From Planctomycetaceae bacterium (GTDB taxonomy: Bacteria; Planctomycetota; UBA1135; GCA-002686595), in assembly GCA_011525785.1 (NCBI GenBank), contig WYBT01000035.1:124001-188000 (forward strand): a stretch of DNA of 64,000 nucleotides, written 5' to 3'. Position numbers and translations under genes: made by a program. Position 1 is the first letter of the stretch; every line of letters begins with the position of its first letter. Under the pieces are notes generated by a model, which searched no databases, was not told where the DNA came from, and worked only from the letters and a program-made list of their open reading frames with translations. This document shows positions 21,423-50,501 of the stretch, in pieces.

Positions 21423-21577
21423 CGGCGTTGTTCGGGCGCGGCGGGGGCCGCAGAGCGGGTCGGAATTGCGGATCGGATCGTAACGGCCGAGCGCGCCGCT
21501 GGATCTCCAACCTGTGCCGCAGTGCGTGCGCGTTGGAGCGCAGCGCGCTCGCGGTCTCCAGCTCTCGGAAGGTCCCC

Positions 21578-33556: not shown

Positions 33557-33564
33557 GATTCGTC

Positions 33565-33570
33565 CGCCTA
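33565..33570 (-). promoter_or_regulatory. Candidate -10 box TAGGCG
   Basis: Reverse-strand TAGGCG ends 8 bases before the ATG at 33556; same short spacing as other -10-like boxes in this window. No Shine-Dalgarno. Confidence 0.3.
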
Positions 33571-33712
33571 GCCGAGCGGGGCGCGGGCGCCGAACGCCCA
33601 ATTGCCGATTGCTTGCTCGGAACTTGGCTCGGGTGCCGTAAGTGGGCCGTAACCGGAGCAAAATTCCCAGTGCCGCGGCTCGGGACGCTGGCGGCCCGCG
33701 CTCGGGCCTCAC

Positions 33713-33718
33713 TATCAT
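33713..33718 (+). promoter_or_regulatory. Candidate -10 box TATCAT ahead of the amidohydrolase operon
   Basis: TATCAT in an otherwise GC-rich 237-base gap; it is the best -10 candidate before the eleven-gene operon, about 75 bases upstream of its first start codon. The -35 is not convincing. Confidence 0.3.
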
Positions 33719-33793: not shown

Positions 33794-35443
33794 GTGCGAC
33801 CGCCGCGCAGCCATCGCAGGCGCCCATCCTCGTGGTGGGGTCCTGGTCGCAGGAGTCTCCCCAACTTGCTAGCGATCGCCAGCCTTCTTGTGTGCGGGCT
33901 CGTACCCGAGCCCGCGTCCGCGATTTCCGCTGCAGCGCCGCACCGAGCGGCTCCCGGGTCCCACCCCGGCGCCATCACGGCCAGCGGCACGCCCTCGAAC
34001 GCGCTCCCAGATGCCCTTTTTGACGACCCGCCCGAGGCGGCTAAGTCCTCGGGCAAGTCTGCGGGCAAGAAGACCGCTGACGAGGCCGACGACAAGCCGA
34101 AGGCCGGCGAAAAGGCGGCTGGCAAGTCGGAGTCGGCGGGGGACGACGCCGTCGCTGCCGATGCGCCGCCGCCGCCGGTGTTCATCAAAGCCGGCAAGCT
34201 CTACGCGCGTCCGGACCGGGTGCTCGAGGGGGTCGGGATCCTGGTTGAGCGGGGGCGCGTGGTCGCCATCGGCGCCGAACTCCAGGCGCCCAAGGACGTG
34301 CGCAAGCTCGAGGCTGCGGTCGTGTGCGCGGGCTTCATCGACGGCTGGTCGTCGTTCGCGCTCGACCCGACCGCCTGGGGCGACGAGCGCGTGAGCCCCT
34401 CGTCGTCGGCGCTCGACGCCGTCGATCCGTACGTCGATCCGCGCTGGGAACGCGAGATCCTGCGGGCCGGCGTCACCAGCTATCGCCTGCAGGCTGCGGC
34501 TGGCGCGCGGGTCGGCGGGCTCTGCGCGCTGCTGCGCCTCCACCCCACGCGCGCCACCGCGGACTCGGTGTTGCTGGGCGACTCTTCGGTCGGGCTCTCG
34601 CTCGCCGTTTCTCGCTCGGGCGACGTCTTCGAGCGCGCCGCCGAGACCGAGCGCGTGCTGGGCGCGATTGCCGAGGGCTGGGGCTATCTCGAAGAGAAGA
34701 ACGAGTACAAGCACGAGCTCGCCGAGTGGGAGAAGAAGATCGCCGAGAAGCGCAAGGAACTCGACGACGGCTTCAAGAAGGCCAAGAAGGACCGCGAGAA
34801 GGCTGAGGCGGAGGCCAAGGAGAAGGGCGGCGAGTTCAAGGAGAAGGAATACAAGGAGGACAAGAAGCCCAAGGCGCCGCGTTACGACGAGGACAAGGAA
34901 GTCCTCGCGCGCGTCGCCAACGGTGAGCTGCCGCTGGTCGTCGAAGCGCATAGCGCGGTGCAGATCCGCTCCCTGCTGGCCTCGGCAGACCGATTCAAGC
35001 GCGCGCGACTCGTGCTGGCCGGCGCGACCGAGGCCGCGCCCTTCGCCAAGCAACTGGCCGAGCACCGCATCGCCGTGCTGATCGCGCCCACGCCGCTGGG
35101 CTTCTACCGCGACTCGACCAGCGCCAACGCAAGTCTGGCGCTGGCGGCCGAACTCGAAGAGGCCGGGGTCGAAGTGCTTCTCGGCAGCGGCGGTCCGTCG
35201 GCCCTGGCCTCGCGCGATCTGCCGCTGCTCGCCGCGCTGGCCATCGGCCACGGGATGAGCCCGCAGGCGGCGCTGGCGGCGCTGACCACGCGTCCCGCGC
35301 GCGTGTTCGATGTCTCCTCGCGCGTCGGTTCGGTGGAGCTGGGGCGCGACGCCGACCTGCTCCTGCTCGACGGGGAGCCCTTCGCGGCCTCGACCAAGGT
35401 GAAGTACGTGCTGAGCGGCGGCGACGTCGTGATCGAGGAGTGA
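33794..35443 (+). CDS. Exported amidohydrolase-like protein, metal site missing (operon gene 1)
   Basis: 549 residues from GTG 33794. A basic n-region and the hydrophobic LPNLLAIASLLVCGL give a signal peptide, followed by a low-complexity Lys/Ala/Asp linker (~75-125). The amidohydrolase N-terminal strand pair is readable (VFIKAGKLYARPDRVLEGVG, ILVERGRVVAIGAEL). At the HxH position it has CAGFIDGWSSFALDP, so the metal ligands are absent. Residues ~300-360 are a Lys/Glu-rich, probably coiled-coil insertion. The C-terminus keeps the family ending: ALTTRPARVFDVSSRVGSVE then DADLLLLDGEPF. It overlaps the next gene by 4 bases. A non-catalytic (structural or binding) role is inferred; an unusual active site cannot be excluded. 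Confidence 0.85.
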   Translation: MRPPRSHRRRPSSWWGPGRRSLPNLLAIASLLVCGLVPEPASAISAAAPHRAAPGSHPGAITASGTPSNALPDALFDDPPEAAKSSGKSAGKKTADEADDKPKAGEKAAGKSESAGDDAVAADAPPPPVFIKAGKLYARPDRVLEGVGILVERGRVVAIGAELQAPKDVRKLEAAVVCAGFIDGWSSFALDPTAWGDERVSPSSSALDAVDPYVDPRWEREILRAGVTSYRLQAAAGARVGGLCALLRLHPTRATADSVLLGDSSVGLSLAVSRSGDVFERAAETERVLGAIAEGWGYLEEKNEYKHELAEWEKKIAEKRKELDDGFKKAKKDREKAEAEAKEKGGEFKEKEYKEDKKPKAPRYDEDKEVLARVANGELPLVVEAHSAVQIRSLLASADRFKRARLVLAGATEAAPFAKQLAEHRIAVLIAPTPLGFYRDSTSANASLALAAELEEAGVEVLLGSGGPSALASRDLPLLAALAIGHGMSPQAALAALTTRPARVFDVSSRVGSVELGRDADLLLLDGEPFAASTKVKYVLSGGDVVIEE

Positions 35444-36549
35444 GCGCGATGAAGAACTGGGTCCTGATTGCCGGCGCGCTGCTCGGTGCGCCGCTCGCGG
35501 CTGGCGCCAACGACGCGCCCTTTGCCGTCAGCGCCAAGCACATCGTCGTCGACGGCAAGACGACCGTGCTCGACGGAGTGCTGGTGGTGGAGCGCGGCAA
35601 GGTGCGCGAAGTGCTCGACGCGAAGCAGAAGTCCAAGGCCGCTGGCTTGCCTACCGTCGAACACGACGGGTGGGTGAGCGCCGGGATGATCGCGGCGCGT
35701 TCGCACCTGGGCACGCGCGGCGAAGTCTCCGAGCCCAAGCGCTCGTTCGCCGCCGATGCGCGCATGCTCGATGTGGTCGACTTCGGCCATCCCGAGCTGG
35801 CGGCCGCGCTGCAGGCCGGGATCACGACCGTGGTGATCGCGCCGGACGCTTCGAATCTGATCGGTGGACGCACCGCCGTGATCAAGACGCACGGGCGTGC
35901 GGTGCTCGACCCCGACGCGCACCTCTTGATCGCGCCTGCGGCGAGCGCCCTGCGCCCCAATCGCGAGCCCACCAGCTTCGCGGGCGCGATGGCGCTCCTG
36001 CGCGAGCAGTTCGAGCGCCCGCAGGGACCGGTTGCGGAAGTTGCGGCGGGCAAGCTGCCTGTGTTGCTCGAGGTCGGCGCCCGCGACGAACTCCAGCGCG
36101 CGCTCGAGTTCGCTCAGACCTACAAGCTGCGCGGCGCGCTCAGCCACGCGCCGCTGGCCGGCGAGCTCGCGGCCGACGTCAAGCGCTCGGGCCTGGCCGC
36201 GATCGTCGGTCCGTTCGGACTCGGCGCGCATCCGCGCGTGCTCGACTCGGTGCGGGCCCTCGCGGCTGAAAGCGTTCCGCTCGCCTTCGGGCTCGACTGG
36301 AATTCGGCCCCGCAGGAACTGCGTCTGAGCGCGGTGATGTGCGTGCGCCAGGGACTGTCGAGCGAACTGGCCTGGAACGCGCTGACCTCGCACGCGGCCG
36401 CGGTGCTCGGGCTGCAGGAGCGCGTCGGCACGCTGCGCGCCGGCTGTGATGCAGATTTCGTGCTGTGGAGCGGCGCGCCGCTCGAGTTGACCAGCCGCGT
36501 GCAAGCGGTGTTCGTGGGCGGAAGCCACGTCTTCGGAGGCCAGCAGTGA
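35440..36549 (+). CDS. Exported amidohydrolase-like protein, metal site missing (operon gene 2)
   Basis: 369 residues from GTG 35440 (GTGA overlap with the previous stop); ATG 35449 gives the compact signal MKNWVLIAGALLGAPLAAGA and may be the true start. The N-terminal strands (AKHIVVDGKTTVLDGVLVVE) and the C-terminal signature (LTSHAAAVLGLQERVGTL, CDADFVLWSGAPLELTS) are amidohydrolase-like. The HxH strand reads SAGMIAARSHLGTRGE, with one lone His. The ITTVVIAPDASNLIGGRTAV segment aligns with the IPGSGTNxGG segment of the active paralogues. No K/E-rich insertion; the smallest member. Overlaps gene 3 by 4 bases. Confidence 0.85.
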   Translation: MSAMKNWVLIAGALLGAPLAAGANDAPFAVSAKHIVVDGKTTVLDGVLVVERGKVREVLDAKQKSKAAGLPTVEHDGWVSAGMIAARSHLGTRGEVSEPKRSFAADARMLDVVDFGHPELAAALQAGITTVVIAPDASNLIGGRTAVIKTHGRAVLDPDAHLLIAPAASALRPNREPTSFAGAMALLREQFERPQGPVAEVAAGKLPVLLEVGARDELQRALEFAQTYKLRGALSHAPLAGELAADVKRSGLAAIVGPFGLGAHPRVLDSVRALAAESVPLAFGLDWNSAPQELRLSAVMCVRQGLSSELAWNALTSHAAAVLGLQERVGTLRAGCDADFVLWSGAPLELTSRVQAVFVGGSHVFGGQQ

Positions 36550-37808
36550 GCGCTCGATCCTCTACCTGCATCGCCGTGGCGCTGACGCTTTTGGCGTCGG
36601 ACGCGTTCGCCGCCAGCCAGGCCAAGAAGTCCGACGAGCAGCGCTCGTGGACGATCACCGCCGAGCGCGTCTACACCGCCGAAGGCGACGCCATCGAGGA
36701 CGGCGAGATCGTCGTCGAAGGCGGCAAGATCCGCGCGGTCGGCAAAGGCGGCGGCGGCGACCTCAAGGTCTACGCGGTCACGCCTGGACTGGTGGACCTC
36801 TCCATTCGCATCGATCAGGGGCGCTACTCCGTCGAGCAGGCCAGCGAGGTCACGCCGCACGTGCGCGCGGCGGCCTCGCTCGACGTGTTCGACGAAGCTT
36901 GGCTGCGCGCGGCGCGCAGCGGCGTCACCACCGCGATGCTCAACGTGCCCGACCGCAACGTCATCGGCGGGCTCTCGGTGGTGGTCAAGACCGCGGGCGA
37001 GCCGAGCGCCCAGGCGCGCGTGGTCAAGGCCGACGCGGCGCTGTACGGCGCGATCGGCAGCGCGCCGTCCTCCGGCAATCGCACCGCTGCGCCGCGGCCC
37101 GAGGACTTCTTCGTGCGACGGCCGACGACGCGCATGGGCGTTGAGTGGGAGTGGCGCAAATCGCTGTTCGACGCCGCGGCCGCGCGGGTCGAGCCGGCGC
37201 GCGCCAAGCCCGGCGACGGTGAGTTGCAGCGCGCGCTCGACGGTCAGCTGCCGCTGGTGATCCAGGCCTGGGCCTCGCAGGACATCCGCACGGCGGTGTT
37301 CCTGGTCGAAGAGGCGCGCCGCGAGGGCTGGGGCAATCCCCGGCTGATCGTCGACGCCGCCGCCGAGGCTTGGCGCGAGCCGCAGTTGCTGGTGCGCTCC
37401 AAGGCCGCCGTCGTGCTGCCGCCGTTCGCGCCGCTGGGCCGCACCGGCGATCGCGCCTTCTTCGCGCTCGACACGGCCGCCAAGCTGGAGGCGCTCGGCG
37501 TCCCGGTGGCGCTGTCCGGGCACGACGCCGAGGCGCTCGAAGATCGCCTGTGCTACCAGCCGGGCTACGCCATGCGCGGCGGCCTGAGCTTCGCGAGCGC
37601 GCTCGCCGCGGTCACGCTCACACCCGCGCGACTGGTCGGTGTCGACCAGCGCGTCGGATCGATCAAGGCCGGCAAGGACGCCGACCTGGTGCTGTGGAAC
37701 GGCGAGCCCTTCCAACCCACTTCCAAGGTCGTCGGCGTGCTCGTCGACGGACGTCTGATCGTCGACCCGCGCCAAGCCGCGAACGCCCCCTCGAGCTCGA
37801 ACAAGTAG
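36546..37808 (+). CDS. Exported amidohydrolase-like protein, metal site missing (operon gene 3)
   Basis: 420 residues from GTG 36546 (GTGA overlap). Signal peptide STCIAVALTLLASDAFA. Amidohydrolase N-terminus ITAERVYTAEGDAIEDGEIV. The HxH position is TPGLVDLSIRIDQGRYS, so there are no metal-binding His residues. The NVIGGLSVVVKTAGEPSAQA segment is the family's second loop. C-terminus: AVTLTPARLVGVDQRVGSIK then DADLVLWNGEPFQPTSKV. Probably a non-catalytic paralogue. Confidence 0.85.
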   Translation: MSARSSTCIAVALTLLASDAFAASQAKKSDEQRSWTITAERVYTAEGDAIEDGEIVVEGGKIRAVGKGGGGDLKVYAVTPGLVDLSIRIDQGRYSVEQASEVTPHVRAAASLDVFDEAWLRAARSGVTTAMLNVPDRNVIGGLSVVVKTAGEPSAQARVVKADAALYGAIGSAPSSGNRTAAPRPEDFFVRRPTTRMGVEWEWRKSLFDAAAARVEPARAKPGDGELQRALDGQLPLVIQAWASQDIRTAVFLVEEARREGWGNPRLIVDAAAEAWREPQLLVRSKAAVVLPPFAPLGRTGDRAFFALDTAAKLEALGVPVALSGHDAEALEDRLCYQPGYAMRGGLSFASALAAVTLTPARLVGVDQRVGSIKAGKDADLVLWNGEPFQPTSKVVGVLVDGRLIVDPRQAANAPSSSNK

Positions 37809-37825
37809 CCCCTGCCCCATCCCAC

Positions 37826-39469
37826 ATGAAGCACCTTCGCTCCACTGCCCAACGCCTGGTCTCGCGCGGAACGCGGCGCGTGTGTGTCCTGGCTGCCGCC
37901 GCTGCGCTGTGCTCCGGCGCTGCGCACGCCGACGGCAAGCTCGCCATCAAGGCCGGTCGCATCGTGACCGCGCCGGACGCGCCCGTGATCGAGAAGGGCG
38001 TGATCGTGATCGAGAACGGCCGCATCGCCGCGGTCGGCAAGGACAAGGACGTCAAGATCCCGTGGGACGCCCCGGTGATCGACGCGCCGCACGCGACGGC
38101 CTTCCCCGGCTACGTCGAGGCGCACGTCTCGCGCGGCATGGACCGGCCCAACGAGAGCCCCGAGATCGTGATCCCGTTCCTGACCGTGCGGGACTCGATC
38201 GATCCGGTGAACTTCTTCTTCGAGGACTGCCTGCGCTCGGGCATCACGACCATCAACGTCCAGCAGGGCAACGACTGCATCGTCGCCGCGCAGGGCATGG
38301 TCGTGCGCCCGATCGGCCTCACCATCGACGACATGGCGGTCAAGTACCCCGCCGGCGTGAAGATGTCGGCTTCGCCGCGCCGTGGGGCCTCCGCCGCGAC
38401 GCAGGCGCAGTCGCTGCGCCGCGTGTTCAGCGACCTGCGCCGCTACCTCGAGCAACTCGTCCAGGACAAGAAGGACGGCAGCGATCGCGCCCGCCGTGAA
38501 GCGCTGTACCAGGGCCGCGACCTCGAGGGCGAGAAGTCCAAGGGTCGCGCCATGGAAGGCAGCGCCTGGAAGGTCCAGGGGCTCGAGCTGATTCCGCGCG
38601 GCGAGATCGACGAGAAGCAGGAGCCGCTGCTGGCGCTGGTCGAGGGCAAGCTGCCGGCGTTCATCTGGTGCGGTCGGCCCGCCGACGTGCACCTCGCGAT
38701 CGAAGTGGCTCGCGAAAACGGCTTCCTGGCGCGCACCACGCTGGTGATCGACCCCTCGTGCTGGAAGGCGGCCGATGTCATCGCCGCGGCCAAGGTCCCG
38801 GTCGTGCTGCAAGGCAACGTCCTGCACCTCGAGATCGATCCGCTCACTGGCAAGGAAGTCGAGACCTTCGTGCCGAAGGTGCTGCACGACAAGAAGATCC
38901 CCTTCGCGCTCAGCTCGCTGAACTCGACCAACCAGGCGCTGTGGTTCCAGGCCGCGCTGTGCGTCGGCCACGGACTGCCGCGCGCGGCGGCGCTCGCCGC
39001 GGTGACGACCGCGCCGTCGAAGATCCTGGGCCTCGACAAGCGCGTCGGCAGCCTCGAAGTCGGCAAGGACGGCAACGTGCTGCTCCTCTCCGGCGATCCG
39101 CTCAGCGTCACGACCTGGGTCGAGCGCGTCGTGATCGAAGGCCGCGACGCCTACGACCGCTCGAAGGACGTCCGCGTCCAGCACCTCGTGGCCGGCAAGC
39201 AGCCCGCCAACACCGCGGCTATGAACGCCGAGGAACTCGACCCCAGCAAGGTGTGCTGCGACGGCTCCGACGAGAAGGCGCACGCCAAGCACCTCGAGGC
39301 GCAGAAGCGCGCGGCCGACAAGGGCGAGGGCGGCAAGGACGACGAGAAGAAGGGCGACGACAAGAAGGACGAGAAGAAGCCGGACGAGAAGAAGGGTGAC
39401 GGCTCGCACGAGGGCCACGACCACGGTGACGGCGCCCATGCGGACGGCGCCGAGGGGGCGCGGCTGTGA
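37826..39469 (+). CDS. Exported amidohydrolase-like protein with acidic/His-rich tail, metal site missing (operon gene 4)
   Basis: 547 residues from ATG 37826 (17-base gap after gene 3). Signal peptide ending LCSGAAHA. N-terminus KLAIKAGRIVTAPDAPVIEK. At the HxH position: FPGYVEAHVSRGMDRPNE (single His). A helical insertion at ~205-255 (RVFSDLRRYLEQLVQDKKDG). C-terminal signature: AVTTAPSKILGLDKRVGSLE then KDGNVLLLSGDPLSVTTWV. After the fold comes a ~75-residue Lys/Asp/Glu-rich tail that ends in a His-rich stretch (SHEGHDHGDGAHADG), possibly a metal-binding or anchoring tail. Overlaps gene 5. Confidence 0.85.
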   Translation: MKHLRSTAQRLVSRGTRRVCVLAAAAALCSGAAHADGKLAIKAGRIVTAPDAPVIEKGVIVIENGRIAAVGKDKDVKIPWDAPVIDAPHATAFPGYVEAHVSRGMDRPNESPEIVIPFLTVRDSIDPVNFFFEDCLRSGITTINVQQGNDCIVAAQGMVVRPIGLTIDDMAVKYPAGVKMSASPRRGASAATQAQSLRRVFSDLRRYLEQLVQDKKDGSDRARREALYQGRDLEGEKSKGRAMEGSAWKVQGLELIPRGEIDEKQEPLLALVEGKLPAFIWCGRPADVHLAIEVARENGFLARTTLVIDPSCWKAADVIAAAKVPVVLQGNVLHLEIDPLTGKEVETFVPKVLHDKKIPFALSSLNSTNQALWFQAALCVGHGLPRAAALAAVTTAPSKILGLDKRVGSLEVGKDGNVLLLSGDPLSVTTWVERVVIEGRDAYDRSKDVRVQHLVAGKQPANTAAMNAEELDPSKVCCDGSDEKAHAKHLEAQKRAADKGEGGKDDEKKGDDKKDEKKPDEKKGDGSHEGHDHGDGAHADGAEGARL

Positions 39470-42408
39470 TGCGACTCGCTCAGCTCTGTGCGGGCGCGCT
39501 GACGCTCGCCGCGCTGGCCTGGGCCGGCGACTCGCACTCGGAGGCCTCGGGTTCGTCGAAGCCCGCGCGCGCGGTGCTGCTCAAGGCCGGTGCGATCCAC
39601 ACCATGGGCGAGGCCGGCGTCGTGCTCGGCGGCGCGCTGCTCGTCGAGCGCGGCAAGGTCGTCGCGGTTGGCAAGGACTTGAGCGTTCCGCCCGGCGCAG
39701 AGGTGGTCGACTACGGCCCCGACGCCGTGATCGTCCCCGGCCTGGTCGCGGCGCGCTCCAACTACGGCGCGAGCTTCGCAGCCTCGCCGCGCAGCGCCGA
39801 TCCGTTCCTGCGCGCGGCCGATCACTTCGATCCGTACTCGCGCGCCTACGTCAGCGACCTGATGGGCGGCGTGACCACCGTCTACGTTGCGCCGGCGCGC
39901 AACCGCCTGATCGCGGGCCAAGGCGCCGTCGTCAAGCTCGCCGGCAGCGGCGAGAGGATCGTGGCGGACACCAGCGCGCTGCACGGGACGATCACCGCCG
40001 AAGCGCGGCGCGTCCCCGGCTACTGGGACCCGCCGATCCCGGCCACGATCGAGAACGGACTGGGCGTGGTCGAGCAGCAGTTGCCGGGCTCGGCCATGGG
40101 CGCGGTGATGGCGCTGGACGAGTTGCTCGCCATCGCGCGCGGCAAGGCGCGCGACAGCGGCGCCTGGGGGCCCGACACGGCTTCCAAGCTGCGCGAGATG
40201 CTCGACGCCAGCGTGCCGTGGCGGCTGGGCGCCGACACGGCTGAGGAGATCCGCGCGCTGCTCGAGCTAGCGCGCCGCGAGAAGCTGCCGCTGGTGATCG
40301 AGGGCGGCGGCGAGTCGTCCGGGCTGAGCGAGGAACTCGCGCACGCCGGCGTGACGGTGGTGCTCACGGTCGATGTCGCGGGCCAGAGCAGCGGGCGCGA
40401 TCTGGGCAAGGGGCTCGACGAACGCCGGCCCCGCTACGACAACGCGGTCCAACTCTCCAAGGCGGGAGTCAAGCTGGCGATCGCGCCGGGCGGCGCGCTG
40501 CGCGCCCGTGACGTGCGATTCGCGGCCCAGGTGGCTTCGCGCGGCGGTCTGAGCGCCGACGCGGCCCTGCGTGCGATCACCATCGACGCGGCCGAGGCGC
40601 TGGGCGTCGCCGCGCGCGTCGGAAGTCTCGCCCCCGGCAAGGACGCCGACGTGTGCGTGCTCAATGGCGAGCCGCTCTCGACCGGCGCGAGCGTGCTGGC
40701 CACCTGGATCGAAGGCGAGCGCGTGTGGAGCGCCAGCTCGGCCTCCGCCGTCGTCATCGACGCGCAGGAGGTGCATCTGGGCGACGGACACGTGCTGCGT
40801 CCCGGTCAGGTGCTCCTGCGCGACGGCAAGGTCGCCGAAGTTGGCGCACGCGTGGCGCGCCCCGTCGGCGCGCGCGTGGTGCGCGGCTTCGCGGCCATGC
40901 CGGGGATGATCGACGCGCTCGGCTTCCTGGGACTGGACGGCTCGCAACAGACGCCAGCCACGGACTTCAGCTTGTCCAAGATCCTCGACGCTCCCGATCA
41001 CGTCGACCGCGAGGTTGCGCGCAGCGGTGTCACGACCGTGGTGATGGCGCCGCGCGGCGTGCGCGACACCGGCTCGCCGATGATGGCCTACAAGCCCGCC
41101 AGCACCGACCTCGAGCGCCAGGTCATCGCCGACCCGACCGCGCTGCGCCTGCAGTGGAGCGACTCGAACCGCCTCAAGTCGGGTGAGAAGGTCCGTGCGC
41201 AGCTCAAGCGCGCCGCGGACTACGCCAGGAAGTGGAGCGAGTACGAAGAGGCGCTGCGCAAGTGGACGCCCCCGGCGCCCGAAGCGGCCCCAGAGGAAGA
41301 GGCCGCCGACGACAAGGCCGAGGCCAAGTCCGACGCCAAGTCCGACGCCAAGGCCGACGCGAAGGCCGACGCCAAGCCCGAAGAGAAGAAGGACGAGAAA
41401 AAGGACGAGTCCGCCGGCGACAAGAAGGACGCCGACAAGAAGGACAGCAAGAAGAAGGGCAAGGAGGAGGAGGAAGCCGATCCGCTCACGGGCGTGTGGG
41501 CTGGCGAACTCGAGGCCGCGCCCGAGGTGAGCGAGCGCGAAGTGCGGCTGCGGCTCGAGCTGAAGGGCGAGGGCGTCGTCGGCGCGTTGCGCTGCGATCA
41601 CGTCTCGGCGGTCCTGGTCCCGCTCGTCGGCTCGTGGAGCGACAAGAAGCTGAGCGTCAGCGGCTGGGGCTCGCGCGGCGCGATCACGCTCACCGGCTCG
41701 GCCAAGGGCGGCAAGTTCGAGGGCGAACTGCAACTCGGCGAGGCCAAGCTGAAGCTCACGGCGACGCGCGAGAGCAAGGAACTGCCGGTCGCGGCGCGCA
41801 GCGAGGTCCGGCGCCAGAAGGCGAGCGAGACGCCTGAACCCAAGGGCAAGCCGCGTTCGCCCGGGATCGACGGCAAGCTCGAACCGTTCCGACGCGCCAT
41901 GCGCGGAGATGCGGCGATCATCGTCGCCGTCGATCGCGAGGACGAGATCCTGGCCTGTGTGGCCGCCTTCGAAGAGGTCGGCATCAAGCCGGTCCTGCAG
42001 GGCGCGGAGGACGCCTGGCTGATCGCGGACAAGCTGCGCGGCCGCGTTGCGGGCGTGCTGCTGTCGCACGCCGTGCTGATGGTCGAGGAAGGCAAGGGCC
42101 TGGACGAGATGCGCAACCGCTACGCGGATCTGGCGGCCCACGGCATCCCGCTGGCGTTCCACAGCCTGGCGGAGGAGGGCGCGGCCGAACTGCCCATGTT
42201 TGCGAGCTACGCCGTCTCGCTCGGGTTCAGCCCCGACGTGGCGCTGCGCGCTCTCACCAGCGACGCCGCGACGATGCTCGGCATCCACGCGCGCGTCGGG
42301 CGGCTCTCCCCTGGCCTCGACGGCGACGTGCTGGTGCTCGACGGCGCGCCGCTCGAGCCCGCCACGCGCGTGCTCAAGGCCTTCGTCGACGGCGTCGAGG
42401 TGCGCTGA
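39466..42408 (+). CDS. Tandem fusion of two amidohydrolase-like units, metal sites missing (operon gene 5)
   Basis: 980 residues from GTG 39466 (GTGATG; ATG 39469 is equally possible and overlaps the previous stop by one base). Signal peptide MRLAQLCAGALTLAALAWA. Unit 1 (~30-430): AVLLKAGAIHTMGEAGVVLG, VPGLVAARSNYGASFA at the HxH position, and C-terminal AITIDAAEALGVAARVGSLA. Unit 2 (~430-979): MPGMIDALGFLGLDGS at the HxH position and DAATMLGIHARVGRLSPG. Between unit 2's halves lies a Lys/Asp-rich segment (~620-670) with repeated AKSD/AKAD units and a beta-rich insert (~675-770; ADPLTGVWAGELEAAPEVSE...). Neither unit has HxH, so it is a double pseudoenzyme by appearance. Confidence 0.85.
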   Translation: MMRLAQLCAGALTLAALAWAGDSHSEASGSSKPARAVLLKAGAIHTMGEAGVVLGGALLVERGKVVAVGKDLSVPPGAEVVDYGPDAVIVPGLVAARSNYGASFAASPRSADPFLRAADHFDPYSRAYVSDLMGGVTTVYVAPARNRLIAGQGAVVKLAGSGERIVADTSALHGTITAEARRVPGYWDPPIPATIENGLGVVEQQLPGSAMGAVMALDELLAIARGKARDSGAWGPDTASKLREMLDASVPWRLGADTAEEIRALLELARREKLPLVIEGGGESSGLSEELAHAGVTVVLTVDVAGQSSGRDLGKGLDERRPRYDNAVQLSKAGVKLAIAPGGALRARDVRFAAQVASRGGLSADAALRAITIDAAEALGVAARVGSLAPGKDADVCVLNGEPLSTGASVLATWIEGERVWSASSASAVVIDAQEVHLGDGHVLRPGQVLLRDGKVAEVGARVARPVGARVVRGFAAMPGMIDALGFLGLDGSQQTPATDFSLSKILDAPDHVDREVARSGVTTVVMAPRGVRDTGSPMMAYKPASTDLERQVIADPTALRLQWSDSNRLKSGEKVRAQLKRAADYARKWSEYEEALRKWTPPAPEAAPEEEAADDKAEAKSDAKSDAKADAKADAKPEEKKDEKKDESAGDKKDADKKDSKKKGKEEEEADPLTGVWAGELEAAPEVSEREVRLRLELKGEGVVGALRCDHVSAVLVPLVGSWSDKKLSVSGWGSRGAITLTGSAKGGKFEGELQLGEAKLKLTATRESKELPVAARSEVRRQKASETPEPKGKPRSPGIDGKLEPFRRAMRGDAAIIVAVDREDEILACVAAFEEVGIKPVLQGAEDAWLIADKLRGRVAGVLLSHAVLMVEEGKGLDEMRNRYADLAAHGIPLAFHSLAEEGAAELPMFASYAVSLGFSPDVALRALTSDAATMLGIHARVGRLSPGLDGDVLVLDGAPLEPATRVLKAFVDGVEVR
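41320..41475 (+). repeat. Short tandem repeat encoding Lys/Asp/Ala-rich segment
   Basis: Imperfect 12-base repeats (GCCAAGTCCGAC-like) encode repeated AKSD/AKAD units followed by KKDE runs in operon gene 5. Such repeats are prone to length variation. Confidence 0.75.
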
Positions 42409-42415
42409 GGTTCAC

Positions 42416-43714
42416 GTGGCGCTCGCACTGGCCATCGCTTGCGCGCTCTCGCTCGAGGGCGCGGCGCTCGAGTCCGCCACTCCGCAGCCGGGGGAGCGGG
42501 GCGGGCCCGGTCTGGCGCTGTTCGCCGCCAAGGCGCTGACGGCGGCGTGGAAGGGCGAGCAGGCGCTCGACAACGCCGTGCTGCTCGTGCGCGACGGCCG
42601 CATCGAGGCCGTCGGAGCGCGCGACAAGGTTGCGGTGCCCGCGGGCTACGTCGTGCGCGATCTGGGTTCGCTGTGGGTCATGCCCGGCATGATCGACCTG
42701 CACTGCCACGCGGCGGGCACGATGGACATCAACGACCTGGTGTACGTCACGCAGCCCGAGCTCTCTGCGCGCACCTCGGTCATCCCCGACAACCCGGCCT
42801 TCCGCCGCGGCATCGCGGCCGGCGTCACGGCGGTTCTCTTCATCCCCGGCTCGGGCGTCAACTGCGGCGGCCGCGGCGTGCTGCTCAAGACCGGCCCAGA
42901 GCGTTACGAGGACGCGCTGATCCGCGACCCCGGCTCGCTGAAGGTGGCGCAGTGGGGCAACCCGGAGAGCTACGCCTTCGGCGTGGGCAAGACCTGGGAG
43001 AACTACCACCTGCGCCACATGTTCCGCACCGGGCAGGCGTACGCCAAAGCGTGGTCGGAGTTCGAGGCCGGCAAGGGACCGCAGCCCGAGCGCAAACTCG
43101 AGCTCGACGTGTTCCGCGACCTGTTCGCCAAGCGCACGCAGATCTCGACCCACACCCAGATCACGCAGGTGGTGATGATGACCCTGCTGATGATCCGCGG
43201 CGAGTTCGGGCTCGACGTGTACATCGACCACGGCGAGTTCGGCGGCTACCGCATGGCGGAGCTGGCCGAGAAGATGGGCGTGCCGGCGATCCTCGGTCCG
43301 CGCAACGTCGAGACCATGAGCCTGGGCATGATGCTCTTCACGGGCGAGTCGCCCGAGCGCTTCCAGGGCATCGCCGCCGGCTATCAGGAGCGCGGGCACT
43401 CGATGATCGGCTTCAACACCGATTGCCTGCCCTTCCCGGGCTTCACACCGTCGCTCGAGGACCTGCCCACGCAGGGCGCGATCGCGGTGTATTACGGCTT
43501 CGACGACCGCGACATGGCGACGGTGCGCGGGCTCACGATCGTGCCGGCCAAGACCGCGGGCATCGACCACCGCGTCGGCAGCCTGGAGGTCGGCAAGGAC
43601 GCCGACATCGTCGTCCTCACCGGCGTGCCCTCCGATCCGCGGCGGGCCGTCGAGCAGGTCTACGTCGAAGGTCGCCGGCTCTACGACACGGCGAGCAACA
43701 GGAGACGCTGGTGA
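42416..43714 (+). CDS. Exported metal-dependent amidohydrolase, imidazolonepropionase-like (operon gene 6)
   Basis: 432 residues from GTG 42416, preceded by TGAGG (42406-42410). A short hydrophobic N-terminus acts as a signal (MALALAIACALSLEGA). Metal-site elements are complete: HxH at His96/His98 (MPGMIDLHCHAAG), a later His in ISTHTQITQV, His in DVYIDHGEFGGY and the final Asp in GFNTDCLPF. The second-loop motif reads IPGSGVNCGGRGVLLKTG and the ending is GLTIVPAKTAGIDHRVGSLE then DADIVVLTGVPSDP. It should hydrolyse a cyclic amide, imide, lactone or peptide-like bond outside the cytoplasm; the substrate is unknown. Closely related to gene 7, which begins at the shared stop (TGATG). Confidence 0.9.
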   Translation: MALALAIACALSLEGAALESATPQPGERGGPGLALFAAKALTAAWKGEQALDNAVLLVRDGRIEAVGARDKVAVPAGYVVRDLGSLWVMPGMIDLHCHAAGTMDINDLVYVTQPELSARTSVIPDNPAFRRGIAAGVTAVLFIPGSGVNCGGRGVLLKTGPERYEDALIRDPGSLKVAQWGNPESYAFGVGKTWENYHLRHMFRTGQAYAKAWSEFEAGKGPQPERKLELDVFRDLFAKRTQISTHTQITQVVMMTLLMIRGEFGLDVYIDHGEFGGYRMAELAEKMGVPAILGPRNVETMSLGMMLFTGESPERFQGIAAGYQERGHSMIGFNTDCLPFPGFTPSLEDLPTQGAIAVYYGFDDRDMATVRGLTIVPAKTAGIDHRVGSLEVGKDADIVVLTGVPSDPRRAVEQVYVEGRRLYDTASNRRRW

Positions 43715-45087
43715 TGTTGGAACGGCTTCGAGTCCGTGGGTGGTGCGCGCTGGCGTTGGCGCTGTCCCAGGCGTATGGGTTCGCGCAGTCGACGCCGGCA
43801 GCGAGTGGGAGCCTGCGCGCGCCCGATCCGCGCCGCTCGGCGTACACAGTGGACGACGCGCTCGCCCCCCCCGCGCCCGGCGCGAAGGGCGGCCCGGGTC
43901 TCGCGCTGCTGGTGAGCAAGGCGCTCACGGCGCAGTGGGGCGGCGCGCAGACCATCGACAACGCGCTCATCCTCGTGCGCGACGGGCGCATCGAGAGCAT
44001 CGGGCCGCGCGAGGGGACCAGCGCTCCAGCGGGCTACGTGGTGCGCGACCTGGGCGCGCTGTGGGCCATGCCGGGGATGATCGACCTGCACTCGCACGTC
44101 GGCGGGTCGATGGACATCAACGACATGGTCTACGTGACCAATCCCGAGTTGAACGTGCGCGCCTCGGTGATTCCCTCGAACTCGAACTTCGAGCGCGCCA
44201 TCGCTTCGGGCGTGACCAGCGTGCTGTACATCCCCGGCTCGGGCACCAACTCGGGCGGCCAGGGCGTGCTGCTCAAGACGGGCCTGCCCAACTACGAAGA
44301 GTCGGTCATCCGCGATCCCGGCTCGCTCAAGGTCGCGCAGTGGGGCAACCCCGAGCGCTGGGGCTTCGGGGTCGGCAAGACCTGGGAGAACCACCACCTG
44401 CGTGACATGTTCATGCAGGGCCGCGCCTACGCCGCGCGCTGGCGCGCCTTCGAGGAAGGCAAGGGCCCGCAGCCCGAACGCGATCTGCGCCTGGACATCT
44501 TCCGCGAGCTGTTCTCGCACCGCACGCAGGTCTCGACGCACACGCAGGTCGCGCAGGTGGTGATGATGACCATCCTGATGATCCGCAAGGAGTTCGGGAT
44601 CGACGTGTACATCGACCACGGCGAGTGGGGCGGCTACCTGTACGCGGAGCTCGCCAAGGAACTCGGCGTGCCGGGGATCATCGGGCCGCGCAACGTCGAC
44701 AACGCGCGCACCGGTCCGGGGCCGTGGGGCGGCTCGAACCCCGAGAAGATGACCGCCATCGCCGGCGAGTATCAGGCGCGCGGAATGGACATGGTCGGCT
44801 TCAACACCGACTCGCCCGTGATCCCGCAGGAGGAGCTGTTCCTCCAGTCGTCGGTCAACGTGCGTTACGGCTTCCGGAACGACGACGCACAGGCCGTGCG
44901 CGGGCACACCATCGTCCCGGCCAAGACGGCGGGGATCGATCAACGCGTGGGCAGCCTGGAAAAGGGCAAGGACGCCGACATCGTGATCCTGAGCGGCGAT
45001 CCCAGCGATCCGCGCACCAGCGTGGAAGTGGTCTTCATCGAAGGCCGGAAGGTCTACGACACCGCCGTCGACGTGAGGCGCTTTTGA
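43714..45087 (+). CDS. Exported metal-dependent amidohydrolase, imidazolonepropionase-like (operon gene 7)
   Basis: 457 residues from ATG 43714 (1-base overlap with the previous stop; AGGAG at 43700-43704 precedes it; GTG 43711 is also in frame). Signal peptide through WCALALALSQAYGFAQ. Metal residues: His126/His128 (GMIDLHSHVGG), STHTQVAQV, YIDHGEWGGY and FNTDSPVIP. Long stretches match gene 6 (DPGSLKVAQWGNPE, FGVGKTWEN, GKGPQPER), showing recent tandem duplication. C-terminus: IVPAKTAGIDQRVGSLEKGK then DADIVILSGDPSDP. Substrate unknown. Confidence 0.92.
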   Translation: MLERLRVRGWCALALALSQAYGFAQSTPAASGSLRAPDPRRSAYTVDDALAPPAPGAKGGPGLALLVSKALTAQWGGAQTIDNALILVRDGRIESIGPREGTSAPAGYVVRDLGALWAMPGMIDLHSHVGGSMDINDMVYVTNPELNVRASVIPSNSNFERAIASGVTSVLYIPGSGTNSGGQGVLLKTGLPNYEESVIRDPGSLKVAQWGNPERWGFGVGKTWENHHLRDMFMQGRAYAARWRAFEEGKGPQPERDLRLDIFRELFSHRTQVSTHTQVAQVVMMTILMIRKEFGIDVYIDHGEWGGYLYAELAKELGVPGIIGPRNVDNARTGPGPWGGSNPEKMTAIAGEYQARGMDMVGFNTDSPVIPQEELFLQSSVNVRYGFRNDDAQAVRGHTIVPAKTAGIDQRVGSLEKGKDADIVILSGDPSDPRTSVEVVFIEGRKVYDTAVDVRRF

Positions 45088-46397
45088 GGCGAGTCGCGCG
45101 CACGCTGGCCCGCGTCGGACGCTCTGCTGCGCTGTGCTGCGCGGCGAGCCTGTCCGTCGTGAGCGCGGCGCGCGCCGGCGTCGAACTCGAAACGCGCTCG
45201 CCGTCGCCCGGCGAGCCCGGCGCTCCCGGACTCGCGCTGCTGGCGCGCAAACTGCTGATCGCTTCCGAGCGCGGGGAGCAGGTCGTCGACCACGGCGTGT
45301 TGACCCTGCGCGACGGCCGCATCGAGTCGATCGGGCCGCGCGAGGGCGCCGCGATTCCGGCGGGCTACGTCGTGGTCGACCTGGGCGAGCACTGGCTCAT
45401 GCCCGGCATGATCGACCTGCACAGCCACATCGGCGGGTCGGGCGGCGACATCAACGACATGGTCTTCCAGACCAACGAGGGGCTGCGCGTCGGGCCCACC
45501 GTGGTCCCGCGCAACGACAACCTGCTGCGCTGCCTCGCCGCGGGCGTGACGACGGTGCTCTACATCCCCGGTTCGGGCACGAACATCGGCGGCCAGGGGA
45601 TGCTCATCAAGACCGGCCTCGACACCTTCGAGGAGCTCGTCCTGCGCGAACGCGGCTCGCTCAAGATCGCGCAGGGCGACAACCCCACGCGCTGGGGCTA
45701 CGGCATGGGCCGGGCGATGATGAACTACCACATCCGCTCGACCGTGCGGCGCGGCCTCGCCTACGCCGAGCAGCACGAGCGCGACGCGCAGGCGCGTCCC
45801 TACGACCCGCAGTTCGACGTGTTCCGCTCGCTGGCCGCGCACGAGACGCAGATCTCGACGCACACGCAGATGTACCAGCTCGTGCTCAACACGATCACGA
45901 TGCTCAAGGGCGAGTTCGGCCTGGACGTGTACATCGACCACGGCGAGTGGCGCGGCTTCCTGGCGGCCGAACTCGCGCAGCGCGTGGGCGTGGCGGCGAT
46001 CTGCGGGCCGCGCGAAGTCGACTGGCCGGGCGGCCGCAACGGCGATCCCGATGGCCGTGTGCTGTCCTGCGCCGGCGAGTACCAGCGCCGCGGGCTCGAG
46101 CGCATCGGCTTCAACACCGACGCGCCTGTCGTGCCGGCCGAAGAGCTGCCGTTGCAGGCCGCCGCCTCCGCGCGGCACGGCTTCGACACGGCCGCGATGC
46201 AGGCGGTGCGCGGCTTGACGATCATTCCCGCGCTCGTGGCAGGCGTCGACCACTCCGTCGGCAGCCTGGAGCCGGGCAAGCACGCCGACATCGTGGTGCT
46301 CTCGGGCGACCCCGTAGATCCGCGCAGCGCCATCGAGCGCGTGCTCATCCAGGGGCGCGAGGTCTACACGCGCCAGAGCGGGGGACGCCCGTGGTGA
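45084..46397 (+). CDS. Exported metal-dependent amidohydrolase (operon gene 8)
   Basis: 437 residues from TTG 45084 (TTGA overlap with the stop of gene 7), chosen because it gives a good signal peptide (RRVARTLARVGRSAALCCAA, cleavage near SAARA) and keeps the overlap pattern. Metal residues: His113/His115 (GMIDLHSHIGG), STHTQMYQL, YIDHGEWRGF and FNTDAPVVP. IPGSGTNIGGQGMLIKTG marks the second loop. C-terminus: GLTIIPALVAGVDHSVGSLE then HADIVVLSGDPVDP. Active enzyme predicted; substrate unknown. Confidence 0.9.
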   Translation: MRRVARTLARVGRSAALCCAASLSVVSAARAGVELETRSPSPGEPGAPGLALLARKLLIASERGEQVVDHGVLTLRDGRIESIGPREGAAIPAGYVVVDLGEHWLMPGMIDLHSHIGGSGGDINDMVFQTNEGLRVGPTVVPRNDNLLRCLAAGVTTVLYIPGSGTNIGGQGMLIKTGLDTFEELVLRERGSLKIAQGDNPTRWGYGMGRAMMNYHIRSTVRRGLAYAEQHERDAQARPYDPQFDVFRSLAAHETQISTHTQMYQLVLNTITMLKGEFGLDVYIDHGEWRGFLAAELAQRVGVAAICGPREVDWPGGRNGDPDGRVLSCAGEYQRRGLERIGFNTDAPVVPAEELPLQAAASARHGFDTAAMQAVRGLTIIPALVAGVDHSVGSLEPGKHADIVVLSGDPVDPRSAIERVLIQGREVYTRQSGGRPW

Positions 46398-47719
46398 GCC
46401 CCGTGGCGAGCGCGGCGCAGCGCGAGTCGGGTCGCAGCACGTCGAGCGCCTCCACGCGCCTCGTGGCCGCGGCGTTGGCTGCGTGCTGCGCGGCAGCGTG
46501 CACGGCGAGCGGACCGCGCTCGGAGCGCTCCTCCGCCGCGGCGTCGCCACAAGCGCGCGGCGAGATCCGCGCGCTGGCGGAGGGCGAGCAAGGCTTCGCG
46601 ATCGTCGCCGGCAAGGTTCTCACCGCCGATGAGCGCGATCAGGTCTTCGAGCCCGGTCTGGTGGTCGTGCGCGATCGCTGCATCGACTACGTCGGCCCGC
46701 TGGTCGAGCTGCCCGAAGGCTACGAGCGCCTCGACGCGCCGGAGCTGTTCGCCGCGCCGGGCATGATCGACCTGCACTCGCACGTGCAGTCCGGCGGCTG
46801 GGGCGACCTCAACGACATGGTGATCTCGCTCAACCCCGAGTTCCGCAGCTCGCCGACGCTCGTCCCGGGCAACGAAAGCGTGCGGCGCGCCTGCGCGGGC
46901 GGCATCACGACCTTGTTCGGCATCCCCGGCAGCGGCACGAACAACGGCGGCTTCGGCGTGCTCTACAAGACGCGCTGCGAGAGCACCTACGACGGCTGCG
47001 TGCTCGCCGATCCGGGCGGCATGAAGGTCGCGCAGGCCTACAACCCCGAGCGCGGCGCGGACCTGGGCGCGACGCGCGCCGGAATGGCCTGGAACCTGGC
47101 GCGCGCCAACGAGATTGCGCTCGCGGCCAACCGCGACGGCCGCGACCACTTCGCGCTGCGCAACCTGCAGAAGGTGCACACCAAGGAGCTGCCGCTCCTG
47201 ATCCACACCGCCGGACCTGCGTGCCACACCACGATCGACATGTGGGGCGAGCGCTATCCCGTGCGCGCGGTGCTCAGCCACGGGTGCTTCAACGGCTGGC
47301 GCTTCGCGCCCTACGCCGCGCAGGTCGGCATGCCGATGAACCTCGGGCCGCGCACCTTCGACTGGTTCTCGTCGCGCGAGGGCCAGGTGATCGGCACGCC
47401 GCAGCGCTACGAACAGGCCGGCGCCGCGCTGATCTCGGTCAACACCGACGCGCCGGTCATGCCGCAGGAAGAGCTGGCGCTCCAAGGCGCGATGGGCGCG
47501 CGGCTGGGCGCGAGTTCGTACCTGATGCTCAAGGCCTGCACCTACAACCCGGCCAAGTCCTTCGGTCTCGAAGACAAGGTCGGGAGCCTCTCCCCCGGCC
47601 GCCACGCCGACATCGTGCTGTGGCGCGGCGATCCGCTCGACCCGCGCGCGCGCGTGGAGCGCGTGTGGATCGAAGGCCGCCTCGAATACGACCGCGAGCG
47701 CGACGGACAGCGCTTCTAG
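46394..47719 (+). CDS. Exported metal-dependent amidohydrolase, possible lipoprotein (operon gene 9)
   Basis: 441 residues from GTG 46394 (GTGA overlap; GTG 46391 also in frame). The N-terminus contains TRLVAAALAACCAAACTASG, with Cys residues placed as in a lipoprotein signal, so membrane anchoring is possible. Metal residues: His128/His130 (GMIDLHSHVQSG), LIHTAGPACHTT, AVLSHGCFNGW and VNTDAPVMP. Less similar to genes 6-8 than they are to one another, but the same layout: IPGSGTNNGGFGVLYKTR and a C-terminal GLEDKVGSLSPGRHADIVLW. Active enzyme predicted. Confidence 0.9.
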   Translation: MSPVASAAQRESGRSTSSASTRLVAAALAACCAAACTASGPRSERSSAAASPQARGEIRALAEGEQGFAIVAGKVLTADERDQVFEPGLVVVRDRCIDYVGPLVELPEGYERLDAPELFAAPGMIDLHSHVQSGGWGDLNDMVISLNPEFRSSPTLVPGNESVRRACAGGITTLFGIPGSGTNNGGFGVLYKTRCESTYDGCVLADPGGMKVAQAYNPERGADLGATRAGMAWNLARANEIALAANRDGRDHFALRNLQKVHTKELPLLIHTAGPACHTTIDMWGERYPVRAVLSHGCFNGWRFAPYAAQVGMPMNLGPRTFDWFSSREGQVIGTPQRYEQAGAALISVNTDAPVMPQEELALQGAMGARLGASSYLMLKACTYNPAKSFGLEDKVGSLSPGRHADIVLWRGDPLDPRARVERVWIEGRLEYDRERDGQRF

Positions 47720-47751
47720 CCCGACTCGAATCCGTTCGACTCGAAACCAAC

Positions 47752-49044
47752 ATGCTCCTCCGAACCTTCCTCTCGTCCCTCCTGCCGGTGGCGTTGGCCG
47801 CCAGCGCGCTCGCCGCGCCGGCCGATCTCCTGGCGATTCGCGTCGGCCGCGCCGAAACCGTTTCGCACGGCGCCATCGAGCACGCGGTGCTGCTCATCGA
47901 AGACGGGCGCATCGTCACCATCGGCGCCGACCTGCCCGTGGAGCGCGGCATTCCGGTGCTCGAGCGGCCGGAGTGGACCGTGATGCCCGGACTGGTGCTG
48001 CCCTACTCGCGCCTGGGGCTCGACGGCCGCGCCGGCGCGGAGTTCACGCCCGAGGTCAGCCCCGCGGCCGAAGTCTTGCCGCGCATCAGCGACTACCGCG
48101 ACGCGCTCGAACTGGGCATCACCACGATCGGCCTGTACCCGCCGGGCAACGGCGTTCCCGGTCAGGCCATCGCGATTCGCCCCAAGGGCGACACGCTCGA
48201 GGAGATGCTGATCAAGGAAGGCGCGTACTTGAAGGTCTACTTCCGCGCCGACGCGCGCTCGAAGAAGATGGTCAAGGACGCCTGGGCCAAGGTCGACGAG
48301 TACGACGACAAGGTCAAGAAGGCCAAGGAGAAGTGGACCAAGGACCAGGAGAAGTCCAAGTCCGCCAAGAAGCCGGCCGAGGGCGAGAAGAAAGACGAGG
48401 AGAAGCCGGCCGACAAGCCCGCCGAGAAGAGCGGCGACGCCGGCAAGGGTGCGGCCAAGGGCTTCGTTCCGCCGCCGCCCGACGACAAGGTGCGGCCGTT
48501 CCTGCGCGTGCGCGACGGCAAGCTGCTGCCGCTCGTTTCGATCTCACAGGCGGCCGACTGGGCGCACTGGCTCGACGCGATCGGCGAGCGCAAGTTCGAC
48601 TTCGCGCTGCGCGTGGTGATGCAGCGCGAGCTCGACCTGTACTACGTGCTCGAGGAAGTCGCCAAGCGCAAGTGCACGCTGGTGATGGAGCCGGAGATCA
48701 CCTACCAGATCGCGACCATGCGCCAGCGCAACCTGCCGGCGGAGTTCGCCGCTGCGGGCAGTCGCATCGTGCTGATTCCGCGCGGCGAAGACCTCGACTC
48801 GCACGCCGCCTGGCGCGTCGATGTCGGCGACCTCGTCAAGAACGGTCTGGAGCGCAAGACGGCGCTCGACGCTCTCACGCTCGCCGGCGCGTCGGTGATG
48901 GGGCTCGAAAAGGACTACGGCAGCCTCGAGAAGGGCAAGGTGGCGAACCTGCTGTTCCTCGACGGCGATCCGTTCGAACCCGCGACCAAGGTCATGGCCG
49001 TCATGCTCGACGGCGAGTTCGTCCACGGCGAGGTGCGCCAGTGA
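47752..49044 (+). CDS. Exported amidohydrolase-like protein, metal site missing (operon gene 10)
   Basis: 430 residues from ATG 47752 (32-base gap). Signal peptide MLLRTFLSSLLPVALAASAL. N-terminus LAIRVGRAETVSHGAIEHAV. The HxH position reads MPGLVLPYSRLGLDGRAG. ITTIGLYPPGNGVPGQAIAI replaces the second-loop motif. A Lys/Glu-rich helical insertion spans ~165-240 (KAKEKWTKDQEKSKSAKKPA and more). C-terminus: LTLAGASVMGLEKDYGSLEK then VANLLFLDGDPFEPATKV. Looks non-catalytic. The next gene starts just downstream. Confidence 0.85.
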   Translation: MLLRTFLSSLLPVALAASALAAPADLLAIRVGRAETVSHGAIEHAVLLIEDGRIVTIGADLPVERGIPVLERPEWTVMPGLVLPYSRLGLDGRAGAEFTPEVSPAAEVLPRISDYRDALELGITTIGLYPPGNGVPGQAIAIRPKGDTLEEMLIKEGAYLKVYFRADARSKKMVKDAWAKVDEYDDKVKKAKEKWTKDQEKSKSAKKPAEGEKKDEEKPADKPAEKSGDAGKGAAKGFVPPPPDDKVRPFLRVRDGKLLPLVSISQAADWAHWLDAIGERKFDFALRVVMQRELDLYYVLEEVAKRKCTLVMEPEITYQIATMRQRNLPAEFAAAGSRIVLIPRGEDLDSHAAWRVDVGDLVKNGLERKTALDALTLAGASVMGLEKDYGSLEKGKVANLLFLDGDPFEPATKVMAVMLDGEFVHGEVRQ

Positions 49045-49079
49045 AGCTCTCGATGAAGGCTGGAGTGGGAGGATCGGTG

Positions 49080-50501
49080 ATGCGTTCTGCAGCCTGGTTG
49101 TTCGCGCTGGCGCCGCTGCTGGCGGGAGACGTGTTCGCGCAGGAAGGCGGCGGCGAGCCCCCGGCCGGCGGCGAGGGCGACGCGGCGGGCGCCGACGCGC
49201 CCAAGGACGAGGGCGAGTGGTTCGCCGTGGTCGGCGGCGATGTCTACACCGGCACGGGCGCGGTGCTGCGCGGCGCGACGGTGCTCGCGCGCGGCGGCGT
49301 GATCCGCGAGATCGGCCACGAGGTCGAGATCCCCGAAGACGCCAAGCGGCTCGACGCCACGGGGTTGAGCGTCTACCCCGGATTGGTGGCGCTCAACGTG
49401 CGCGGCGTCGCCAACCGCCTCGGCGCGGGCGACTACGCCGACAGCTTCGATCCCTACAGCCAGAACCTGGTGCTGGCGCTCGCGGCCGGCATCACGACCG
49501 TCTCGGAGGGCAGCGTGGCCCTCAAGCTCAAGCGCGGCGAGGTCAAGGGCGTGGTGATGCGCGAGCGCTTCCTGTCGACCTTGGGCTACAGCACCAGCGC
49601 CCCGCGCTCGAAGGGCGAGCTCGACGAGAAGTTCGCCGCCGCTGCGGCCTACCTGCGCCGCTACCGCGACTGGGAGGAGCAGAAGAAGACCAACAAGGAG
49701 CTCAAGGAGCCGCCCGCGCGCGGCGTCGATCCGTCGATCCGCGCGATCCTCGAGAACCGCACGCTGGCGCGCTTCAACGCCACGACGCGCACCGACCTGC
49801 TCGGCATCGCGCGCCTGGCGCAGAAGCACAAGTTCCGGCCGGTGATCGAGGGCGCCGTCGAGGCCTGGACCGTGGCCGACGAGTTGGGTCGCGCCGGCGC
49901 GTACGCCGTGGTCGTGCCGCGCAGTCGCCGCGACAAGAGCGAGGAACTCGTGCGCCCCGGCGGCTCGAGCATCGAGAACGCCGCCATCCTCCACAAGAGC
50001 GGCGTGCAGGTCGCGATCCAGGCCAGCTCGACCTTCATCGACCTGGGCGGCATCGCCGGCCGCGACATCCTGCACCTGCCGATCGAAGCGGGCTTCGCCG
50101 TGCGCGGCGGACTGCCCGAGCAGGCGGCGCTCGAGGGCATCACGATCGTCCCGGCGCGCATCCTGGGCGTCGACCATCGCGTGGGCAGCCTCGAGGTCGG
50201 CAAGGACTGCGACCTGATCCTGCTCGACGGCGATCTGCTGCACTACCAGTCGCTGGTCCAGTACACCGTGGTCGACGGCAAGCTCGTCTACGAGAAGGAC
50301 AAGGAGCTGTACTACGCGCACATCCGTCCGCGCCCGTCGACGCAGCCCGCGGACGCGCCTGAGGCGCGGCGCGACAAGGGCGAGGAGGAGGTCAAGGCCT
50401 CCGACAGCGAGGGCGAGGACAAGCCTGAAGACAAGCCCGAAGAGAAGCCGGAGGAGAAGCCCGAGGAAAAGCCGAGCGACGGCGCCTCGGACGAAGGCTG
50501 A
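49080..50501 (+). CDS. Exported amidohydrolase-like protein with repetitive Lys/Glu/Pro tail, metal site missing (operon gene 11)
   Basis: 473 residues from ATG 49080, supported by the strong ribosome binding site GGGAGG (49067-49072) and a clean signal peptide (MRSAAWLFALAPLLAGDVFA). GTG 49041 (overlapping the previous stop) and ATG 49053 are in-frame alternatives. The HxH position reads YPGLVALNVRGVANRLG. A helical insertion RRYRDWEEQKKTNKELKEPP precedes the second half. The second-half ending is intact: GITIVPARILGVDHRVGSLE then DCDLILLDGDLLHYQ. The C-terminal ~40 residues are repeats of EDKPEEKPEEKP. This is the last gene of the operon; a 16-bp hairpin follows. Confidence 0.85.
   Translation: MRSAAWLFALAPLLAGDVFAQEGGGEPPAGGEGDAAGADAPKDEGEWFAVVGGDVYTGTGAVLRGATVLARGGVIREIGHEVEIPEDAKRLDATGLSVYPGLVALNVRGVANRLGAGDYADSFDPYSQNLVLALAAGITTVSEGSVALKLKRGEVKGVVMRERFLSTLGYSTSAPRSKGELDEKFAAAAAYLRRYRDWEEQKKTNKELKEPPARGVDPSIRAILENRTLARFNATTRTDLLGIARLAQKHKFRPVIEGAVEAWTVADELGRAGAYAVVVPRSRRDKSEELVRPGGSSIENAAILHKSGVQVAIQASSTFIDLGGIAGRDILHLPIEAGFAVRGGLPEQAALEGITIVPARILGVDHRVGSLEVGKDCDLILLDGDLLHYQSLVQYTVVDGKLVYEKDKELYYAHIRPRPSTQPADAPEARRDKGEEEVKASDSEGEDKPEDKPEEKPEEKPEEKPSDGASDEG

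Follow-up and report, generated by a model that had tools for sequence, protein, structure and literature searches.

The window, a stretch of 64,000 nucleotides taken at its full length, carries between positions 33794 and 50501 eleven consecutive genes on the + strand (g1 to g11), which together encode twelve PF01979-type domains, g5 being a two-domain protein. These genes make up an eight-slot cassette with the order g1-g2-g3-g4-g5-(catalytic slot, one to four copies)-g10-g11, the catalytic slot here being occupied by g6 to g9. Judged by sequence family, all eleven would be called amidohydrolases, yet they behave as one conserved unit, in mostly uncultured planctomycetes. The probable product of the cassette is an exported hetero-oligomer with amidohydrolase activity, whose single catalytic type would be surrounded, and probably gated, by seven non-catalytic paralogues. 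The features are as follows.

33794..35443, + strand: g1, predicted exported non-catalytic paralogue, 549 aa, with a Lys/Glu-rich barrel insertion; PF01979 at 44.8 bits, no HxH
35449..36549 (alternative start 35440), + strand: g2, predicted exported non-catalytic paralogue, 366 aa; PF01979 at 38.4 bits
36546..37808, + strand: g3, predicted exported non-catalytic paralogue, 420 aa; PF01979 at 52.6 bits, ligands lost
37826..39469, + strand: g4, predicted exported paralogue, 547 aa, with a charged C-terminal tail; PF01979, first His and Lys kept, other ligands rare
39469..42408, + strand: g5, two-domain non-catalytic protein, 979 aa; two PF01979 stretches, AF2 mean pLDDT 84.0, no ligand set
39469-40731, + strand: g5a, first domain of g5
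40732-42405, + strand: g5b, second domain of g5
41491..41775, + strand: predicted insertion of g5b resembling an eight-stranded beta-barrel; the AF2 model places its strands at residues 675-769
42416..43714, + strand: g6, catalytic-slot amidohydrolase, 432 aa; HCH motif, full ligand set
43714..45087 (alternative start 43711), + strand: g7, catalytic-slot amidohydrolase, 457 aa; full ligand set, AF2 pLDDT 77.7, best structural match 3ooq
44089..44097, + strand: HxH metal motif codons of g7 (H126, H128), invariant in 109/109 catalytic-slot domains
44329 (K206), 44539 (H276), 44617 (H302) and 44809 (D366), + strand: first bases of the other ligand codons of g7
45084..46397, + strand: g8, catalytic-slot amidohydrolase, 437 aa, TTG start; assigned from the ligand alignment
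46394..47719, + strand: g9, catalytic-slot amidohydrolase of a more distant subtype, 441 aa; assigned from the ligand alignment
47752..49044, + strand: g10, predicted exported non-catalytic paralogue, 430 aa, with a charged insertion; PF01979, ligands lost
49053..50501 (alternative start 49041), + strand: g11, predicted exported non-catalytic paralogue, 482 aa, with a charged tail; PF01979

The original prediction of eleven consecutive same-strand genes is borne out, as third-position GC, the junctions and the PF01979 scores all agree. There are also long overlapping frames, such as that at 42439-45087 (882 aa), but third-position GC favours the shorter frames and these were rejected as GC-driven extensions of true genes. 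From g1 to g11 the junctions are -4, -4, +17, -4/-1, +7, -4/-1, -4, -4, +32, and -4/+8 bases, as tight as had been described, with the largest gap corrected from 35 to 32 bases, a value that depends on the choice of start. Promoter and terminator consensus scans returned nothing above shuffles. When the amidohydrolase-superfamily HMM search that had been proposed as a check was run, all eleven proteins passed the Pfam gathering score of PF01979, mostly through their C-terminal part. The predicted export signals are likewise seen, there being a hydrophobic core at every N-terminus by a simple heuristic, used in place of SignalP and with the core of g5 judged by eye, which suggests that all eleven proteins are exported. 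The C-terminal signature is also present throughout, with a sequence of the RVGS-x-GKDAD type closing each of the twelve domains. Identity between slots is about 41% in the C-terminal region versus 19-23% in the barrel. The g6 to g9 proteins share 35-65% identity (50-65% among g6 to g8) and appear from this to be recent relatives; the remaining paralogues are far more distant, their best matches often covering the C-terminal part only.

The amidohydrolase fold, a TIM barrel with a beta-sandwich, is supported by single-chain AF2 models of g7 and g5, both of which match 3ooq, an amidohydrolase of Thermotoga maritima. This is the closest solved structure to g7 (sequence E 3.5e-41; Foldseek E 3.6e-30) and to g5, and the residues taken as the reference ligand set, H126, H128, K206, H276, H302, and D366 of g7, align with matching residues in it. 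Among the twelve aligned domains the HxH motif is found only in g6, g7, g8, and g9, the other eight being without HxH and without most of the other ligands. Across the loci of the order and the phylum, all six metal ligands (HxH, Lys, His, His, Asp) are kept in 109/109 catalytic-slot domains. The signal region of g9 contains a possible lipobox, LAAC; as a general anchor of the catalytic slot this was discounted, only 8/110 having one.

Outside the catalytic slot, 475/480 domains from the same order and phylum loci have no more than three of the six ligands left. None of the six remains in 58/60 orthologues of g11 or in 46/54 of g1. In the g4 slot the first His is kept in 55/65 and the Lys in 58/65, with the other ligands mostly gone, and the Asp is kept in 43/63 of the g10 slot. 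On these alignments, the non-catalytic slots are members of the fold that are not competent metal-dependent enzymes of this type, although some of these 'inactive' members may bind metal or perform other chemistry, as the His and Lys of g4 and the Asp of g10 might allow. The sole domain with all six ligands among the 480 is g2 of L048 (14594-16459), from family f4 of the same order. Because it holds the full ligand set, it would appear that the g2 slot has decayed late or repeatedly, and the L048 copy may be a record of an ancestral active g2.

In the case of g5, two domains are visible in the AF2 model. The barrel-like insertion of g5b is preceded by a charged linker (about 41266-41484) and has conserved Gly675 and Trp677; it has no Pfam match.

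The original prediction was to fail if the genes lay scattered in relatives, but their order recurs throughout the class, and other families of the phylum have it too. With per-slot profile HMMs, first built from the family of the source genome, slot order is identical in 40/40 loci from that family and others in its order, the loci having been picked by their g5 match only and some being cut by contig ends. It is likewise identical in all 80 kept loci of a second collection, in which 84,980 species, overlapping with those of the first, were scanned with one short peptide pattern, the g4 motif; 69 of these 80 loci come from genomes named as Planctomycetota, the other 11 having no phylum given. 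The g5 gene is present in 151/151 genomes of the class, and in a phylum sample 139/294 genomes match at E <= 1e-30, strong g5-type matches (E <= 1.4e-119) being counted by hand in 51 genomes of 19 families outside the order. As read from these genomes, most of the carriers being metagenome assemblies, no fewer than 27 planctomycete families keep the same gene order. That dozens of genomes conserve this order excludes chance.

Of the 36 phylum loci, the 29 with strong matches carry the cassette, or whatever part of it fits on the contig, and the seven with weaker matches (L067-L073) do not. All eight slots are present in 51 of the 56 loci whose cassette falls wholly inside the DNA examined. Four of the five exceptions are an artefact of domain-level scoring, with whole-ORF scoring restoring the order (in L061, g1 and g2 are fused), and the fifth, L161 of genome G319, is a real split. 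Each inactive slot is single-copy while the number of catalytic copies varies, with one, two, three, and four copies in 22, 19, 8, and 2 of the 51 all-slot loci. Junctions across loci have a median of -4 bases over 465 gene pairs, and in 422 of these a potential start lies no more than 60 bases from the preceding stop. The whole cassette is present even in genomes of 2.0-2.1 Mb (G110, G085), which, together with the presence of g5 in every genome of the class, makes this look like a core function.

There are also loci in which slots have been joined or separated. A single reading frame of 1355 aa fuses g1, g2, and g3 in L063, g1 and g2 are fused in L061 and L064, and g4 and g5 are fused in L170. 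In two genomes of one genus (g205), G319 and G292, g1 to g5 are on one contig and the catalytic slot, g10, and g11 are on another; in G319 this second half sits inside a 422-kb contig. In a related genome, G263, both parts are on the same contig. Since linkage alone would not keep both halves after a split, their retention speaks for a function held in common. The fusions among inactive slots and this co-retention may be taken as indirect hints of physical association.

In a FastTree phylogeny of 152 domains, the catalytic slot, g2, g3, g4, g10, and g11 each form one clade across the phylum, with support of 89-100 (g10 having 89), and g1, g5a, and g5b would each need one extra change to form single clades. 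That six slots are single clades phylum-wide would suggest that the slots arose before these families diverged. In comparison with a congener (G001), a single pair assessed by simple counting, dN/dS is 0.225-0.389 for the non-catalytic genes versus 0.242-0.394 for the catalytic ones, which suggests that active and inactive genes are under similar purifying selection.

No published description of the cassette was found in open-access full text, and for 3ooq no reported function was found. The latter is a single protein and its entry has no attached set of inactive paralogues, unlike the cassette. Other structures with the same fold are related to the catalytic slot, including Cc2672 (3mtw), 2qs8, 3mkv, 3feq, ADH3 (8ihs), and the ochratoxinase of A. 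niger (4c5y), although identity to these dipeptidase, carboxypeptidase, and ochratoxin hydrolase structures is low, at about 14-21% in the Foldseek lists. The nearest characterised relatives include peptidases and amide hydrolases, with scores far under the family cut-offs: g6 to g9 reach 58-82 bits, best for g8, against a cut-off of 500 for Xaa-Pro dipeptidase (NF051886, NCBIfam), and the best score among g1 to g10 is 50 bits against a curated cut-off of 298 for imidazolonepropionase (HutI, TIGR01224). That the substrate is an amide bond in a peptide-like compound is a guess.

In the mechanism proposed here, the catalytic position, in this genome with its four copies g6 to g9, would supply the active sites, each formed by HxH, Lys, His, His, and Asp in a TIM barrel, in the periplasm or envelope. 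The eight domains of g1 to g5, g10, and g11 would be pseudo-hydrolases that retain the fold and the C-terminal strand pair. On the simplest reading, the inactive paralogues probably fill places that are held by identical subunits in related homo-octamers; the ochratoxinase of A. niger is a D4 homo-octamer (PMC11342369). These inactive slots could give architecture, stability, substrate gating, or anchoring, and candidates for docking or anchoring are the charged insertions of g1, g5, and g10, the charged tails of g4 and g11, and the predicted eight-stranded barrel of g5. Active and inactive paralogues are conserved together across loci; co-transcription, a physical complex, and a role for the inactive members are inferred. 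Against a complex, co-regulation alone can preserve gene order, and against the octamer analogy, nine to twelve domains fit an octamer poorly.

There are precedents for inactive relatives serving beside an enzyme. An inactive pseudo-dihydroorotase of the amidohydrolase superfamily is required for assembly of the active ATCase of P. aeruginosa (PMC7053772), but there a single pseudo-subunit serves an unrelated enzyme, whereas the cassette has seven inactive slots with their own active paralogue and appears to be exported. The chloroplast CLPPR core mixes catalytic P with non-catalytic R subunits (PMC6508832), and FtsHi pseudo-proteases are a further plastid case of active and inactive paralogues serving together (PMC8197885); these are unrelated protein families in plastids, in contrast to the ordered bacterial cassette here. 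Whether nine or more non-identical amidohydrolase-fold domains are assembled into one particle with one catalytic type, as an obligate exported machine with a core function in much of the phylum, is evenly balanced in our judgement. The further suggestion that bacteria would then have their own counterpart to the ClpP/R principle of plastids, in a new class of enzyme, is an analogy to which we give equal measures of belief and doubt.

The original prediction had offered either a multi-subunit envelope complex or a dedicated degradation route, and of these the complex fits best. A catabolic route in which a cyclic or amide substrate is broken down by one hydrolase after another, each gene serving one step, would agree with a single apparent operon whose members are all exported amidohydrolase-fold proteins; it is nevertheless highly improbable, since seven of the eight slots have lost the metal ligands, and g5, being in every genome searched in the class, does not look like part of a niche pathway. 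It is hardly credible that the genes are a tandem-duplication array with no function in common and its redundant copies in decay. While g6 to g8, with the identities given above, do resemble recent duplicates and the catalytic copy number varies, the distinct clades in constant order and dN/dS well below 1 largely refute this.

It is unlikely, too, that these are co-regulated but separate exported proteins, the non-catalytic members binding ligand or presenting substrate to one enzyme with no stable complex. Between slots the barrel has diverged widely (about 19-23% identity) and the C-terminal region much less so, and g4 has conserved residues of its own, as might be expected of such proteins; the fixed order in many families, the slot fusions, and the co-retention after a split better suit stoichiometric partners, and in the flanks compared only a phosphoribosyltransferase-like gene and a divergent ORF stand out. 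Another reading has the inactive paralogues acting on the catalytic chain as chaperones, inhibitors, or regulators instead of being built permanently into the structure; it would accommodate single inactive slots beside one to four catalytic copies, numbers that do not plainly point to one fixed stoichiometry. Seven distinct regulators, each as constrained as the enzyme, would be unusual, however, and this reading is distinctly improbable. If the cassette does encode a hetero-oligomeric complex, it would be an extreme case of enzymes evolving by duplication and inactivation, and could point to an envelope process that is central to these planctomycetes. This is testable because Pla86, a named strain with a complete genome, has a full copy of the cassette.

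Amidohydrolase domains with and without HxH also occur together outside the cassette. In the same genome there is an unlinked adjacent pair of amidohydrolase genes, one with HxH and one without (L199, G000:C38:1-6000), and a two-domain protein of 889 aa with a single HxH lies beside a relative of 814 aa (L198, G000:C33:219000-229000); the pair and the two-domain protein are possibly of a related design. In four of the planctomycete loci without the cassette (L067, L068, L069, L072), a single protein combines two or three amidohydrolase domains with just one HxH between them, possibly pairing active and inactive domains within one chain.

Just upstream of g1, at 33068-33718 on the - strand, is a divergent ORF of 216 aa that has no Pfam match, with homologues at the same place in the loci of 13 relatives. 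Downstream of g11, at 50726-51790 on the + strand, is a gene of glycosyl transferase family 3, anthranilate phosphoribosyltransferase-like, which recurs in about 20 loci; as it is the only gene to recur downstream, the flanks were set aside as uninformative about function. Elsewhere in the window, at 21263-25234 on the + strand, a 1323-aa ORF contains a subtilase domain (PF00082).
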